Shown here piece after piece: positions 1,215 through 60,925 of a DNA stretch of 64,000 bases. The number at the start of each line of letters is the position of its first letter. Position 1 is the first letter of the stretch. Source of the DNA: Oceanimonas aquatica (GTDB lineage Bacteria; Pseudomonadota; Gammaproteobacteria; Enterobacterales; Aeromonadaceae); contig NZ_JAVBHX010000008.1 in the NCBI RefSeq assembly GCF_030732065.1, positions 124,001 through 188,000 on the forward strand, in the 5' to 3' direction. Under the pieces are notes generated by a model. That model ran no database searches. It had not been told where the DNA came from and saw nothing but the letters and a program-made list of their open reading frames with translations. The position numbers were made by a program, and so were the translations under genes.

Positions 1215-1598
<384 letters not shown>

Positions 1599-42796: not shown

Positions 42797-43702
42797 GTGC
42801 GTTCACTGCATCGCTGGCAACAGCTGTATGACCGGGCCGGCGCGTCCGTGCTGCAACCGGTTCATCATACCTCGCTCGACCACCACCGCCTGACCCTGCA
42901 CATCAAGCGGGATGACTTGCTGCATGCTTCTATTTCCGGCAACAAGTGGCGAAAACTTAAATATGTGTTGCGCCAGGCACTGTCGGACGAGGCCGCCGGT
43001 CTGCTCAGCTTTGGCGGTGCCTGGTCCAATCACCTGCATGCCCTGGCTGCTGCCGGCCACGCTCTTGGCGTGCCCACAGTGGGAATTGTACGGGGCGAGC
43101 CCGAATACGCCGCCAACCCCACCCTCACCGATGCACGGGCCTGGGGCATGACACTCGACTTCGTGGACCGGCAAACTTATCGTCGTCGCCACGACGCCGA
43201 CTTTCTGGCCGCGCTGGCATTGAAATACCCCGGCTTTTATATCATTCCCGAAGGGGGCAGCTGCCCGCTGGCCCTGCCCGGGGTGGCCGAGCTGTGGCGA
43301 GAGCTGCCCGATTGCGACCAGCTCATTCTGCCGGTGGCCAGCGGCGGTACTCTCGCCGGCTTGCTGTCGGCCCGCCCCGCCAGCACTCACGTCACAGGCT
43401 ATGCCGTGCTCAAGGGCAAGGACTGGCTGGCCGACACCATACACGAGTTGTATTCACCGGCAGCCGACGATAGCGGCTGGCAGTTGCGGCTGGAGCATCA
43501 CGGCGGTGGTTATGCCAAATGCAGAGCCGAAGACCGAGGCGCCATCGCCGCATTAAGCGAGGCACTGGCGGTACCGCTGGAACCGGTGTACAGCGGCAAG
43601 GCCCTGCTTGGGTTGTTCCGGGACATCGAGGCCGGCCGTTATCCTTCCGGCAGCCGGCTGATTTTTCTGCATACCGGTGGTCTGCAGGGGGCCAGAAGCT
43701 AA
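42797..43702 (+). CDS. PLP-dependent ACC deaminase/D-cysteine desulfhydrase family protein
   Basis: Fold-type II pyridoxal-phosphate enzyme of 301 residues. The Schiff-base Lys is in ISGNKWRKLKY (near residue 45), followed by SFGGAWSNHLHALAA and the PLP-phosphate loop PVASGGTLAG. Family members act on ACC, D-cysteine or D-amino acids; the substrate here is not determinable, and ACC deaminase proper needs residues I cannot verify. GTG start at VRSLHRW gives family length; the ORF is open further upstream but that part looks non-homologous. Its stop overlaps csrD's stop. Confidence 0.82.
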   Translation: MRSLHRWQQLYDRAGASVLQPVHHTSLDHHRLTLHIKRDDLLHASISGNKWRKLKYVLRQALSDEAAGLLSFGGAWSNHLHALAAAGHALGVPTVGIVRGEPEYAANPTLTDARAWGMTLDFVDRQTYRRRHDADFLAALALKYPGFYIIPEGGSCPLALPGVAELWRELPDCDQLILPVASGGTLAGLLSARPASTHVTGYAVLKGKDWLADTIHELYSPAADDSGWQLRLEHHGGGYAKCRAEDRGAIAALSEALAVPLEPVYSGKALLGLFRDIEAGRYPSGSRLIFLHTGGLQGARS

Positions 43703-45612
43703 ACCAGCGCAAAACGCTCGGGGCAGGAAAAATAATAGCCCTGGCCGGCGTGCACCCCCAGTTGTTGCAGGCACTCCCATTCCGCCTCGGTTTCCACCCC
43801 CACGGCGATCACCTCGGTGCGATTGCCCATGCAGTTGCCGAGCAGGCTGCGCACCGCCATCTGGTTATTGGGCTTTTTTTCAATGTCCCGCACCAGGCTG
43901 GGATGCAGCTTGAGGTAATCGAGCTCGTAATCCTTGATGTACTGGGTACTGACCACGTCCTGGCCGGCGTGATCCACCGCCAGCCCGCAGCCCAGCGCCT
44001 TGAGTGCCCGCAGCGGCTTGACCAGATCCAGAAAGTGACGGCTGACACCGGCCTCCGACAGCTCAATCACCAGTTCGCCCAGCAGGGACTTCGGCAGCTG
44101 GATCAGCTCAAACACCAGCCAGCGGTGAAAACCCCGGTTGAGCAGGCTGTCCACCGACAGGTTGATGGCCAGGGTAGCCCGGCGATCACTTTCCTGCAGC
44201 AGGGTCAGGCAACGCAGCATGATGCAGCGATCCAGCTCCTGCAGCAGGCCGCACTTTTCCGCCATCGGAAGAAAATGCCCCGCCGCCAGCTCCCGGCCCT
44301 GCTCGTCGTGAATGCGCGCCAGCAGTTCCTGGCTCTCGGGCTCACCGCCCCGCACCCGGTAAACCCCCTGATGGTCGAGTAGTACCCCATCCTGCTCCAG
44401 CAGTCGCCCCAGCAGGGTGCGCCAGCGTACCGTGCCCTTGCCGCTGCTCTCCTCGGTCAGCCCCTTGTAATACATGAAGTAGCCGTCGCCGCCCTGCAGG
44501 GCGGCGCTGCGCAGCGCCAGCTCGGCTTCTTCCTCCACCTGATGCAACTGTTCGCCAAAACGAAAACAGACCCCACCGATAAACAACGCCGGATCCCGCA
44601 CCGCATCGGGCCAGTGCAACCGGCGCAGCAGCTTGATCACCTGGCGGGCCGCATCCTGTGCCTCGCTCTCCACCAGGTTGGGAAACAGCAGGGCAAAGGT
44701 ATTGCCGGTGTAGCGGGCCTGCAGAGCGCCGGGGTAGCGCCGGATCAGATGGCTCAGGTACACCGAGGCCGAGCTCAGCAGCTCGTCCCCCCGATCATGG
44801 CCCAGCTTGTGGTTGATGTGCTCCAGATCCTGCAGTTCCACCAGCAGCAGGGCACCGGAATGGCTGGCAGAGTCATTAAGAGCCGCTTCCAGCCGGTTGT
44901 CGAAAAACACCCGGTTGCCGATGCCGATTTTGCGATCCACAAACACATTGGCGCGAATAAAGGTATCAAAGCGGCTGCGCTCCTTGCGGGCTTCACGCAG
45001 CTCGCCCATCAGCTTGTCCAGTGCCCGGCTGGCGGCCTGGGGCCACTCCTCATTGGGGCTGTGCTGCAACATGCTGAGCCGGCCCGCCAGGATCAGCCGG
45101 CCACGCTGATCGAGCAGTTCGGCACCGCGCAGCTGGCGGCGAAACCAGCGCAGGCTGAGCAGCAGGCCGGCAAACACCAACATGATGGCGCCGGTCAGGC
45201 CCGACACCGCCGCCAGCGAGCTGTCGATATCGTAAAAAGGCGGCCGCAACACCAGCCTGACCGACAGCCCTTCTTCCCCCGGCAGCGGCCGCCGGTATTC
45301 CCGGGACACCTCACTGGCGGTCAGCGGCTGGCCGAGACTGTAGCGGTAATGCACCCTTGCATCATCCTGCACCGTAAACTCGATGATGTCGTTGACGTCG
45401 AGCAGGGCCGGCAGCCAGCGTTCCAGCGCGGGTTGCTGCTCGGCACTGCTCTGCCAGGCCTCGTCGACCATGCGCACCACGGCGTCCACCTGGCGCTGCT
45501 GGTAGGCCACCCCCATCTGGTAAAAACTGATGCCGGCACCCACCAGCACCATCAGCACGGCCGCCAGCACACACAGGGTGATGGTGGTAATAAACTGGTT
45601 GGTGAATTTCAT
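43699..45612 (-). CDS. csrD: CsrD-like regulator (degenerate GGDEF-EAL)
   Basis: Targets CsrB/CsrC RNAs for RNase E cleavage in E. coli and so tunes CsrA activity. The 637 residues have two membrane helices (about 7-30 and 133-153), a HAMP-like linker, a GGDEF domain degenerate at its signature (TGNTF near residue 305) and an EAL domain in which the metal motif reads ELLARI rather than EALxR. Both domains therefore appear enzymatically inactive, as in E. coli CsrD. It is close to mreB as in enterobacteria. A CsrB-like RNA lies 14 kb away. Confidence 0.9.
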   Translation of the reverse strand: MKFTNQFITTITLCVLAAVLMVLVGAGISFYQMGVAYQQRQVDAVVRMVDEAWQSSAEQQPALERWLPALLDVNDIIEFTVQDDARVHYRYSLGQPLTASEVSREYRRPLPGEEGLSVRLVLRPPFYDIDSSLAAVSGLTGAIMLVFAGLLLSLRWFRRQLRGAELLDQRGRLILAGRLSMLQHSPNEEWPQAASRALDKLMGELREARKERSRFDTFIRANVFVDRKIGIGNRVFFDNRLEAALNDSASHSGALLLVELQDLEHINHKLGHDRGDELLSSASVYLSHLIRRYPGALQARYTGNTFALLFPNLVESEAQDAARQVIKLLRRLHWPDAVRDPALFIGGVCFRFGEQLHQVEEEAELALRSAALQGGDGYFMYYKGLTEESSGKGTVRWRTLLGRLLEQDGVLLDHQGVYRVRGGEPESQELLARIHDEQGRELAAGHFLPMAEKCGLLQELDRCIMLRCLTLLQESDRRATLAINLSVDSLLNRGFHRWLVFELIQLPKSLLGELVIELSEAGVSRHFLDLVKPLRALKALGCGLAVDHAGQDVVSTQYIKDYELDYLKLHPSLVRDIEKKPNNQMAVRSLLGNCMGNRTEVIAVGVETEAEWECLQQLGVHAGQGYYFSCPERFALV

Positions 45613-45733
45613 TTGCTGTCCTTGCCGCCGACCCGGTGCCGACACGTCCTGTCTTCCGTTATAACAGAGCCAGGCGAAACCCTCACCCGCCTTTGTTCAG
45701 TATCGTTCAGTTTTTGCCACTCACCCAAACGGC

Positions 45734-58781: not shown

Positions 58782-59234
58782 ATGCACTGTATTATTTCCA
58801 GCCCCTGCGGCCCGCTGCGGATCGACGCCAGCCCCGAGGCCATTACCGGCATTCACTTCCTCAACGAGGACACGCTGGCGCTTTCCCCAACCTCACCGCT
58901 GCTGATGAACGCCTGCGCCCAGCTTGACGCCTATTTTTCCGGCCGGCTGCAGCGCTTTACGCTGCCACTGGCACCGCAAGGCACGCCCTTTCAGCAGCAG
59001 GTATGGCGCGCCCTGCAACATATTCCCTGGGGAGAACACCGCAGTTATGGCGACATTGCCGGTGCCATCGGCAACCCCAGGGCGATGCGGGCCGTGGGCG
59101 CCGCCAACGGCCGCAACCCCATTGCCATCGTGATCCCCTGTCACCGGGTGATCGGTGCCAATGGCAGCCTGACCGGCTATGCCGGCGGGCTGGAACGCAA
59201 GCGCTGGCTGCTGGCGCACGAGACAAATGCCTGA
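58782..59234 (+). CDS. ogt: Methylated-DNA-[protein]-cysteine S-methyltransferase (Ogt type)
   Basis: Suicide repair protein that takes alkyl groups from O6-alkylguanine onto its Cys. Active site IPCHRVIG (near residue 121), helix-turn-helix with YGDIAGAIGNPRAMRAVGAA, and the C-terminal GYAGGLERKRWLL are intact. ATG at MHCIISSP (150 residues) is likely; an ATG 30 bases upstream would give 160. No Ada N-terminal zinc domain. Located 69 bases after the NIF3-like gene. Confidence 0.93.
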   Translation: MHCIISSPCGPLRIDASPEAITGIHFLNEDTLALSPTSPLLMNACAQLDAYFSGRLQRFTLPLAPQGTPFQQQVWRALQHIPWGEHRSYGDIAGAIGNPRAMRAVGAANGRNPIAIVIPCHRVIGANGSLTGYAGGLERKRWLLAHETNA

Positions 59235-59251: not shown

Positions 59252-59269
59252 TGTGCGAGATCTCTCAAG
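59252..59269. promoter_or_regulatory. UvrY/GacA-like binding palindrome upstream of the CsrB-like RNA
   Basis: The 18-mer TGTGCGAGATCTCTCAAG has a near-perfect 14-base palindromic core TGCGAGATCTCTCA. It resembles the UvrY/GacA upstream site described for csrB/rsm RNA genes (TGTAAG-N6-CTTACA; GAGATCTC centre). It lies about 170 bases before the favoured RNA start. Confidence 0.55.
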
Positions 59270-59384
59270 CTGAGCACAGACAATGCGTTTTCATGGCCGC
59301 GCCATCACCTTCAGCCATAAGAGTTTTCTCTTTTAAATCAGTGAACTGATATTTTTTAATCCATTCTGACCGTAAGGACAATGA

Positions 59385-59424
59385 AAAAGCCCGGCTTGAG
59401 CGACGTCCGCGCCGGGTTATTATT
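59385..59424 (+). terminator. Candidate terminator of ogt, or 5' hairpin of the RNA
   Basis: A CCCGGC...GCCGGG stem with a 15-base loop, followed by TTATTATTTT. It could terminate ogt. If the RNA starts earlier it would be its first stem-loop. Confidence 0.4.
59396..59423 (+). promoter_or_regulatory. Candidate promoter of the CsrB-like RNA
   Basis: TTGAGC (-35) and TATTAT (-10) are separated by 16 bases; the -10 uses the T-tract of the hairpin just described. A start at about 59430 follows. A second, weaker possibility is the TATTTTTTAAT region at 59350-59360 with a start near 59367. Confidence 0.45.
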
Positions 59425-59429
59425 TTCCC

Positions 59430-59706
59430 CGCAAGGAAGCAGCAAGGCCGGTCAGGAAGACGGGCCTGCCAGGAACGGCAAAAGGACACCGCGAGGATCG
59501 CGGCAAGGACACCTTCAGGGTTGAAGAGGTGAAGCGGGTCAGGAAGACACGCGGTCAGGAACGACCAGGACACCCCGACGGACCGGGAAGCGGATTATTT
59601 CACGGAGTGAAATACAGTCAGGGAAATGGCAGGGAGCCATGAGGTTCACGGAATTGAGCCGTCAGGACGACCGAAAAAGGGGCAACAGCAATGTTGCCCC
59701 TTTTTC
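59430..59706 (+). ncRNA. csrB: CsrB-like regulatory RNA (CsrA-sequestering)
   Basis: A protein-free gap whose plus strand holds 17 GGA triplets between 59435 and 59667 (for example at 59455, 59472, 59484, 59495, 59507, 59542, 59558, 59568, 59665), many as CAGGA, AAGGA or GAGGA, with GGACACC recurring three times. It closes with a 13-bp intrinsic terminator. This is the hallmark of CsrB/CsrC/RsmY-Z RNAs, which bind many CsrA dimers. A UvrY-like palindrome lies upstream and csrD is in the same window. Start is uncertain by about 60 bases; CsrB versus CsrC identity is not resolved. Confidence 0.82.
59674..59705. terminator. Terminator of the CsrB-like RNA (bidirectional)
   Basis: Stem AAAAAGGGGCAAC / GTTGCCCCTTTTT with a 6-base loop; 13 bp perfect. 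It also reads as a terminator for the convergent carboxypeptidase gene, whose stop is 27 bases away. Confidence 0.93.
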
Positions 59707-59731
59707 GTGCTCGCCGTTCGCTCCCGCGTTG

Positions 59732-60925
59732 TTACAGCCGAACCACCAGGCAATCCATGCCCTGACGGGACAGATGCTGGCAGGCGTTCTGCGCCTGTTG
59801 CTTCTCAAACCCCACCAGACGGGCACGAAACAACTTGCGGTTGCTGATCTCCACTTCGGTGACCGCGGCCCGGGCCTGAGCCAGGCTGCCCAGCCTGCTG
59901 GCCGCATCAGACGCCCTGTCCCGGGCCTGCTCAGGCATGCGGAAAGAACCGATTTGCACCGCCCAGCCCAGGTTATCGCTGGCCGTGGTCTGGCCGGTGG
60001 GCAGAGACGCCACCGCCGGCTGCAGCGAAACCGGCGCCCGGGTTTGCGCTGACGGACGCACACTACGCGCGGTCACCACCTTGCGCTCGGGTGCGGCAAC
60101 CCGGGCCACCCGTATGGCCCGGCCAATGCTGCGATCGATCAGCGACGCCATCTGTGCGTCCCTTGATTTGGCGGTCTTGCCCCCCATCACCACCCCGACG
60201 ACCCGGCGATCATCGCGCAGCGCCGACGTCGCCACGTTAAAACCCGAGGCGCGAATATAGCCGGTTTTCATGCCATCCACTCCCGGCAGGTTCTGCACCA
60301 TGCGGTTATGGCTGCGATAGGTTCGCCCCTTGTAGCTGAACGACGGTGTGGAGAAATAATGATAATAGGCGGGGTAGTCCTTCATCAGCCGCAGCGACAG
60401 GGTCGCCAGATCCCGGGCGGTGGACGTCTGCCCCTTGTCGGGCAGACCCGAGGCATTGCGAAAGGTGGTGTTGTACATTTTCAGCTCTTTCGCCTTGGCG
60501 GTCATGCGCCGGGCAAAGGCGCGTTCGCTGCCACCCAGCGCCTCCGCCACCACCACCGCCACATCATTGGCCGAACGCACGATCAGTGCCGGAATGGCGT
60601 CCCGTACCCGCAACCGCTCGCCCGTTTTAAGGGAAATGTTGGTCTGGGGCATGGAAGCGGCGTGGGCCGAGACCGGCATGGTGGTATTCAGGTTCATGCG
60701 CCCCTGCTCCATGGCCTCAAACAACAGATAGAGGGTCATCATCTTGGTAAGTGACGCCGGATAACGGCTGGCATCGGCATTGGCCGCATGCAGCACGGTC
60801 CCGTTTTCCGCATCGATCACAATGGCCGCATAACGGGGGTTGGCCTGAACCTGCACAGCCAGTGCCAGCAGCATCAGTCCCAGAAGGTGAGCAAGTGTTT
60901 TTCCCGGACGGGGTACAGCAAACAT
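59732..60925 (-). CDS. D-alanyl-D-alanine carboxypeptidase with C-terminal SPOR domain
   Basis: Periplasmic low-molecular-mass penicillin-binding protein (peptidase S11), trimming the terminal D-Ala of peptidoglycan pentapeptides. The 397 residues have a signal peptide (1-28), the catalytic motifs SLTK (near 58), SAN (near 118) and KTG (near 222), and a C-terminal SPOR domain (about 320-397, WAVQIGSFRMPEQARDRA) that binds denuded septal glycan strands. E. coli DacA/C/D have a membrane-anchoring helix instead, so this one is probably septum-targeted by SPOR. GGGAGGAGGG is upstream of the ATG. Confidence 0.93.
   Translation of the reverse strand: MFAVPRPGKTLAHLLGLMLLALAVQVQANPRYAAIVIDAENGTVLHAANADASRYPASLTKMMTLYLLFEAMEQGRMNLNTTMPVSAHAASMPQTNISLKTGERLRVRDAIPALIVRSANDVAVVVAEALGGSERAFARRMTAKAKELKMYNTTFRNASGLPDKGQTSTARDLATLSLRLMKDYPAYYHYFSTPSFSYKGRTYRSHNRMVQNLPGVDGMKTGYIRASGFNVATSALRDDRRVVGVVMGGKTAKSRDAQMASLIDRSIGRAIRVARVAAPERKVVTARSVRPSAQTRAPVSLQPAVASLPTGQTTASDNLGWAVQIGSFRMPEQARDRASDAASRLGSLAQARAAVTEVEISNRKLFRARLVGFEKQQAQNACQHLSRQGMDCLVVRL

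Follow-up and report, generated by a model that had tools for sequence, protein, structure and literature searches.

A probable CsrB-family small RNA gene between ogt and a carboxypeptidase gene of Oceanimonas aquatica

The gap between ogt and a carboxypeptidase gene of Oceanimonas aquatica very probably holds a gene for a CsrB-family small RNA, one that would be activated by UvrY and would sequester CsrA. The gene lies on the plus strand at 59430-59706 of the window, the stretch of 64,000 nucleotides that was analysed. CsrA is a global switch for carbon storage, motility and biofilm formation, and RNAs of the CsrB family determine how active it is. Several features can be read from the letters themselves: homology to the Rfam CsrB family; covarying stems; GGA motifs in loops; a regulator box, a promoter-like site and a terminator hairpin; and, elsewhere in the genome, genes like those for CsrA, UvrY, BarA and CsrD. 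The original prediction had called this an unannotated CsrB-like RNA, an identity now supported by the Rfam match, the upstream palindrome, synteny, the covarying stems and the presence of the remaining Csr circuit genes. Good evidence places the locus, as a new member, in this known family; the copy itself scores below the family's threshold.

The predicted transcript is about 277 nt long and carries 17 GGA, with both of its ends placed by prediction. On its 5' side, ogt (PF01035) ends at 59234; on the other side, a D-Ala-D-Ala carboxypeptidase gene with a SPOR domain (PF00768, PF05036) occupies 59732-60925 on the minus strand, convergent to the RNA. These domain matches agree with the gene neighbourhood first proposed.

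The count of 17 GGA within 233 bases, on which the original prediction was built, was reproduced on the plus strand (59435-59667, first G to last A). No 233-nt stretch elsewhere in the window is as dense, the next best non-overlapping ones containing 11 GGA (plus strand) and 12 (minus strand), and dinucleotide shuffles of the whole window (n=60) gave at most 14 per 233 nt on either strand. Against the local composition (35% G and 30% A in 59430-59706), the count is less striking. Dinucleotide shuffles of the 277-nt stretch average 11.7 GGA and reach 17 in 81 of 5000 cases, so that the count alone is no proof of function; mononucleotide shuffles reach at least 17 in 69 of 20000.

What chance does not give is the arrangement of the GGA motifs, rather than their number. 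The minimum-energy fold of the 277-nt stretch (-109.8 kcal/mol; z -6.49) is more stable than any of 200 shuffles. The original prediction had proposed counting GGA in hairpin loops, and nine of the 17 lie wholly within loops; four more are unpaired elsewhere, and four touch stems. The same script, applied to E. coli CsrB, places nine of 22 GGA in hairpin loops and seven unpaired elsewhere, with six touching stems. In a control that held each GGA of the first 240 nt fixed and shuffled the other letters (the mean count even rising, to 20.5 GGA), none of 300 sequences reached either the 10 loop GGA (mean 2.3) or the 14 unpaired GGA (mean 6.2) observed over that length.

A permissive scan with all Rfam families matched CsrB (RF00018) to 59406-59711 over the full length of the model (1-356), with 63.8 bits and E 8.5e-17; a whole-genome search returned the same match at E 1.2e-16. 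The original prediction had pointed to both the CsrB and CsrC models. The first was thus recovered, under its gathering score; the second (RF00084) is absent from the all-family table, where CsrB is the best match of its clan at 59430-59706 and three lower-scoring overlapping clan matches were left out. The RF00018 gathering cut-off is 71 bits, and at gathering thresholds Rfam has no match at 59430-59706, reporting for the window RNase P RNA only (class A, 1215-1598, minus strand, 319.2 bits). Curators set that cut-off for detection; it does not describe the RNA itself. Because it governs automatic listing, and because orthologues at the same locus pass it, the RNA is filed here as a member of RF00018. 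Further matches at the locus (sroB, DapZ twice, CRISPR-DR35, SpF25, STnc320 twice, anti-hemB and BtsR1) had E values of 1.3 to 8 and were taken as chance.

The genome (3.45 Mb, 24 contigs) contains three RF00018 matches: 82.1 bits at locus I; 63.8 bits at locus II, that of the window; and 30.7 bits at locus III. The genus, to which Oceanimonas smirnovii belongs, was represented by 23 genomes, in which 60 matches were found at E 0.001. This threshold was used because weak matches appear in eight of 14 control genomes at E 10; at E 0.001, E. coli has the sole match among the 14. Flanking proteins, searched by tblastn, place 22 of the 60 matches at locus I (sseA / RNA / DUF2007-rsmD), 21 at locus II (nif3-like, ogt / RNA / carboxypeptidase) and 16 at locus III (thrC / RNA); several of these gene names come from Pfam, and the others are what we presume the genes to be. 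At locus II, tblastn gave no ogt match in L113 and no nif3-like match in L114. One match (G002:C1:183070, 23.3 bits) was discarded as a false positive: it holds no more than eight GGA per 233 nt, and the flanking genes of all three loci are missing beside it.

Locus II is present in 22 of the 23 genomes, in 21 by RF00018 and synteny together and in G021 by reading the gap between ogt and the carboxypeptidase gene, where an RNA with 16 GGA, the box and a CAGGGAGC core goes unreported by RF00018. Oceanimonas smirnovii is among the carriers (L006). G019 has an empty site (L212, G019:C178), with the two genes about 60 bp apart and no RNA between them. Eleven of the 22 orthologues exceed the cut-off of 71 (best, 97.2 bits), 10 fall under it, and one is unreported at E 0.001. 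The transcripts contain 13 to 20 GGA in 21 of the orthologues. That of G012 (361 nt in all) includes a 60-nt tandem duplication with GGA hairpins (L152:1567-1686); such duplication may be a way in which these sponges lengthen.

All three sibling RNAs were found by RF00018 and synteny in 15 of the 23 genomes. The locus III RNA, after thrC (L005:2786-3178; G000:C1:168896-169180), is about 390 nt long with 25 GGA, scores 30.7 bits and occurs in 16 of the 23; six of its 25 GGA lie wholly in hairpin loops of the single-sequence fold, and 14 touch stems. In a tree of 81 RNA rows, made by a quick method from a short, noisy alignment (L118 and L195, without the anchor motif, were dropped), a single branch separates locus I from all other rows, and another does so for locus III, with support of 83 and 100. 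Locus II is not one clade and needs two changes, and the deep forks are weak. The simplest reading is that the three copies predate the divergence of most of the genus and have been inherited vertically. Both the window copy and locus III score under the cut-off and would therefore be missed by threshold-based annotation.

Conservation of the fold was evaluated in an alignment of 20 of the 22 locus II orthologues, which leaves out G012, with its internal duplication, and G021, found later. The structure considered has 47 pairs: the RNAalifold consensus minus four long-range pairs that never vary. In the 20 sequences, 96.7% of its cells are paired, and 26 of the 47 pairs have changed on both sides. 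The covariation score is 0.361, against 0.167 in shuffles that ignore the relatedness of the orthologues (none of 500 as high), and versions slid along the alignment reach at most 0.120, a comparison that flatters the structure because it was derived from the same alignment. The hairpin set varies among orthologues (G018 is without one), and the alignment shows single-base insertions and deletions. The loop at 59513-59526 reads CAGGG, as it also does in G018 and G017; G005, G013 and G009 have CAGGA.

The transcript would end at an intrinsic terminator (59673-59706, plus strand), a hairpin with a nine-pair core followed by UUUUU, with a complementary AAAAA upstream. The minimum-energy fold extends the core with this AAAAA and one G-C pair, to 15 pairs of which eight are A-U. 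The hairpin first described as a 13-bp terminator is therefore present, and its length depends on the stopping point: nine for the core, 15 for the minimum-energy fold. A simple terminator scan of the window did not list it. In the 20 orthologues, the terminator helices (9 and 10) have 96.0% and 100% of their cells paired. By its symmetry, the terminator may also end the convergent carboxypeptidase transcript. Shortly before it, the orthologues share a conserved stretch near GACGACC that the consensus structure leaves unpaired. Folded singly, the window copy pairs part of this stretch, so that an RNase E-type cleavage site here is only a guess.

The control region upstream contains a UvrY (GacA/VarA)-type palindrome, TGTGCGAGATCTCTCA, at 59252-59267 (plus strand), with its centre some 170 bp ahead of the predicted start. 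It is the sole match in the window at two or fewer mismatches (0.35 expected). The pattern TGTNNGNGATCTCTYA was drawn up with the three sites already known; it resembles the published E. coli csrB repeat and occurs exactly three times in the 3.45-Mb genome, once before each CsrB-like RNA; its reversed control does not occur in the genome. Phosphorylated UvrY binds the inverted repeat of E. coli csrB, according to PMC4682653. By analogy of sequence, UvrY would bind at 59252-59267. Of 21 locus II orthologues, 19 have a recognisable box (one of them by an alternative pattern adapted to it), and a box can be seen in G021 too; G012 and G002, two of the 22, have no recognisable UvrY box.

A second element lies at a fixed distance from the palindrome. 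Its consensus is GGAnAAnnCGnTTT, and it reads AGACAATGCGTTTT in the window (59278-59291, plus strand). Of the 60 loci covered by the upstream search, nine had no strict box and were set aside (the false positive L177, and L094, L095, L097, L101, L105, L107, L152 and L168). The other 51 upstream regions, which come from the three paralogous loci and were compared without gaps, show GGAnAAnnCGnTTT at +26 to +39 from the start of the box. Single positions before the box also are conserved: AT at -15 and -14, and C at -10. Genus g2 (probably Aeromonas) has, at several of its loci, a further TGTAAG-like site that starts 23 bp after the first, and by eye the E. coli csrB sequence near the position of the second element is TGTAGGAGATCGCC. 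The element may thus be a worn second UvrY site. The sequence at 59278-59291 is possibly such a degenerate site, or the site of another regulator. Together, the palindrome and GGAnAAnnCGnTTT at +26 would make a two-part cassette common to the three Csr RNAs of the genus; that it binds a regulator setting all the sponges together is a tentative suggestion, to which we give a minor share of belief. If it holds, the second element is a second input to the Csr system.

Closer to the RNA, a promoter scan predicts a sigma-70 promoter, TTGAGC-16-TATTAT, at 59396-59423 (plus strand); it also gives one promoter-like site on the opposite strand, at 59621-59594. Thirteen of 21 orthologues have TTGAGC as the -35 hexamer and two more have TTGAGA, with a spacing of 16 nt in all of these; in five (G012, G017, G014, G002 and G011) the hexamer is not TTGAGC-like. 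Conservation of the -10 hexamer is by construction, because it was located by pattern. The sequence that we take to be the IHF consensus, WATCARNNNNTTR, occurs between box and promoter in nine of the 21 orthologues. The corresponding interval of the window has no exact match to it, and so no IHF site is claimed. A GC-rich dyad with a T-rich tail (CCCGGC...GCCGGG, 59390-59425) overlaps the promoter-like site and could stop read-through in this strain. (A conserved attenuator at this -35 dyad was considered and rejected: by eye, some orthologues lack the complementarity.)

Other readings of the locus have to be weighed against that of a working CsrB-family gene. The stretch might be purine-rich, coding or otherwise unrelated intergenic DNA, its GGA count reflecting composition only; the local dinucleotide shuffles that attain 17 GGA would fit, as would the overlapping ORFs of 73 to 137 aa that cross the RNA region. 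This is scarcely credible, and the sequence already contradicts it: composition accounts neither for the E value against a curated RNA model nor for the covariation of the stems, the single-base insertions and deletions across orthologues, a loop placement of GGA seen in none of the 300 controls, or the coincidence of the RNA with a regulator box. A decayed paralogue, a former CsrA sponge that is losing its function, would explain a score that lies under the cut-off and under locus I of the same genome (82.1 bits), together with the CAGGG loop where three orthologues keep CAGGA. However, two other orthologues share CAGGG; the promoter-like site, box, terminator and stems are intact; double changes maintain pairing across the 20 orthologues; and half of the 22 exceed the cut-off. 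The window's own clade in the tree, moreover, has six of its seven rows under the cut-off and the seventh at 71.0. The low score thus goes with the clade, as a bias of the model would, and not with this copy. We regard decay as very improbable.

A Csr RNA with rewired input is unlikely as well, albeit less so than decay. In this case the gene would respond mainly to a factor other than UvrY, one that binds the second element, as a counterpart of csrB1 of Vibrio tasmaniensis. The fixed phasing of that element at three loci is compatible with such an arrangement, for which differently regulated siblings provide precedent (PMC6262261). Yet the UvrY-type palindrome is intact in the window copy, and the second TGTAAG-like sites of g2 suggest that the element itself may be a worn second UvrY site. 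The preferred reading remains a CsrB-family RNA under UvrY control.

Genes for the rest of the circuit are present. CsrA has one match in the genome, with 54 of 56 aligned residues identical to the E. coli protein, and csrA lies, like its E. coli counterpart, after a sequence that looks like the end of alaS. Homologues of UvrY (74% identity) and BarA (47% identity) also were found. A CsrD homologue (GAPES4-GGDEF-EAL) lies in the window itself, at 43699-45645 on the minus strand, and is 40% identical to a 535-aa fragment of E. coli CsrD; its gene, some 14 kb away from the CsrB-type RNA, is next to an apparent mreB. E. coli CsrD permits decay of CsrB through RNase E, which cuts just before the terminator (PMC5027483), and the homologue may control the decay of this RNA.

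These elements suggest a pathway of the familiar kind. The BarA kinase would lead to phosphorylated UvrY, which would bind the palindrome at 59252-59267 and activate the sigma-70 promoter, with a start about 170 bp from the centre of the palindrome. The resulting RNA of about 277 nt would fold into consecutive short hairpins with exposed GGA, and would bind several CsrA dimers and thereby remove CsrA from its mRNA targets. Turnover would proceed through CsrD and RNase E.

Comparison with E. coli shows the same plan with different particulars. CsrB there likewise consists of tandem short hairpins with GGA in loops and an intrinsic terminator, preceded by an 18-nt UvrY inverted repeat centred at -182 (about -170 for the Oceanimonas palindrome), and that genome also has csrA, uvrY, barA and csrD, the last matched here by a csrD-like gene. 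However, E. coli CsrB is 369 nt long with 22 GGA, against about 277 nt and 17 GGA, and its neighbours are syd and yqcC rather than ogt and the carboxypeptidase gene; the Oceanimonas genome, in turn, has three CsrB-like loci, and its window copy is without an exact match to the IHF consensus.

Sibling CsrB-type RNAs are already well known (PMC6262261, PMC6550530). Vibrio cholerae, with CsrB, CsrC and CsrD, and V. tasmaniensis, with csrB1-4, likewise have three or four (PMC6550530, PMC6262261). The V. cholerae Csr sRNAs contain 23-28 GGA each (PMC6550530), more than the window copy, and all three require VarA, the UvrY orthologue (PMC6550530, PMC6262261), whereas csrB1 of V. tasmaniensis is independent of VarS/VarA (PMC6262261). 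The csrB synteny groups of that study are described as specific to Vibrio (PMC6262261). Nearer to Oceanimonas, in g2 (for which the name Aeromonas is our surmise) and other genera of the family, a copy adjoins rsmD in 10 of 30 loci (L115-L144), like locus I. No ogt, carboxypeptidase or nif3-like match was found in 44 stretches from outside the genus (L115-L144, L188-L201), a set in which some stretches overlap, many have only a 1.5-kb flank, and most genomes are represented by one copy. Four genomes of other family genera (G050, G031, G052 and G062) have tandem CsrB-type matches a few hundred bases apart. A search of part of the literature found no paper on CsrB in Oceanimonas or Oceanisphaera.

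The orthologues collected here could improve the RF00018 model. The main open lead is the upstream cassette shared by the three loci, which offers a testable route to the co-regulation of sibling sponges.
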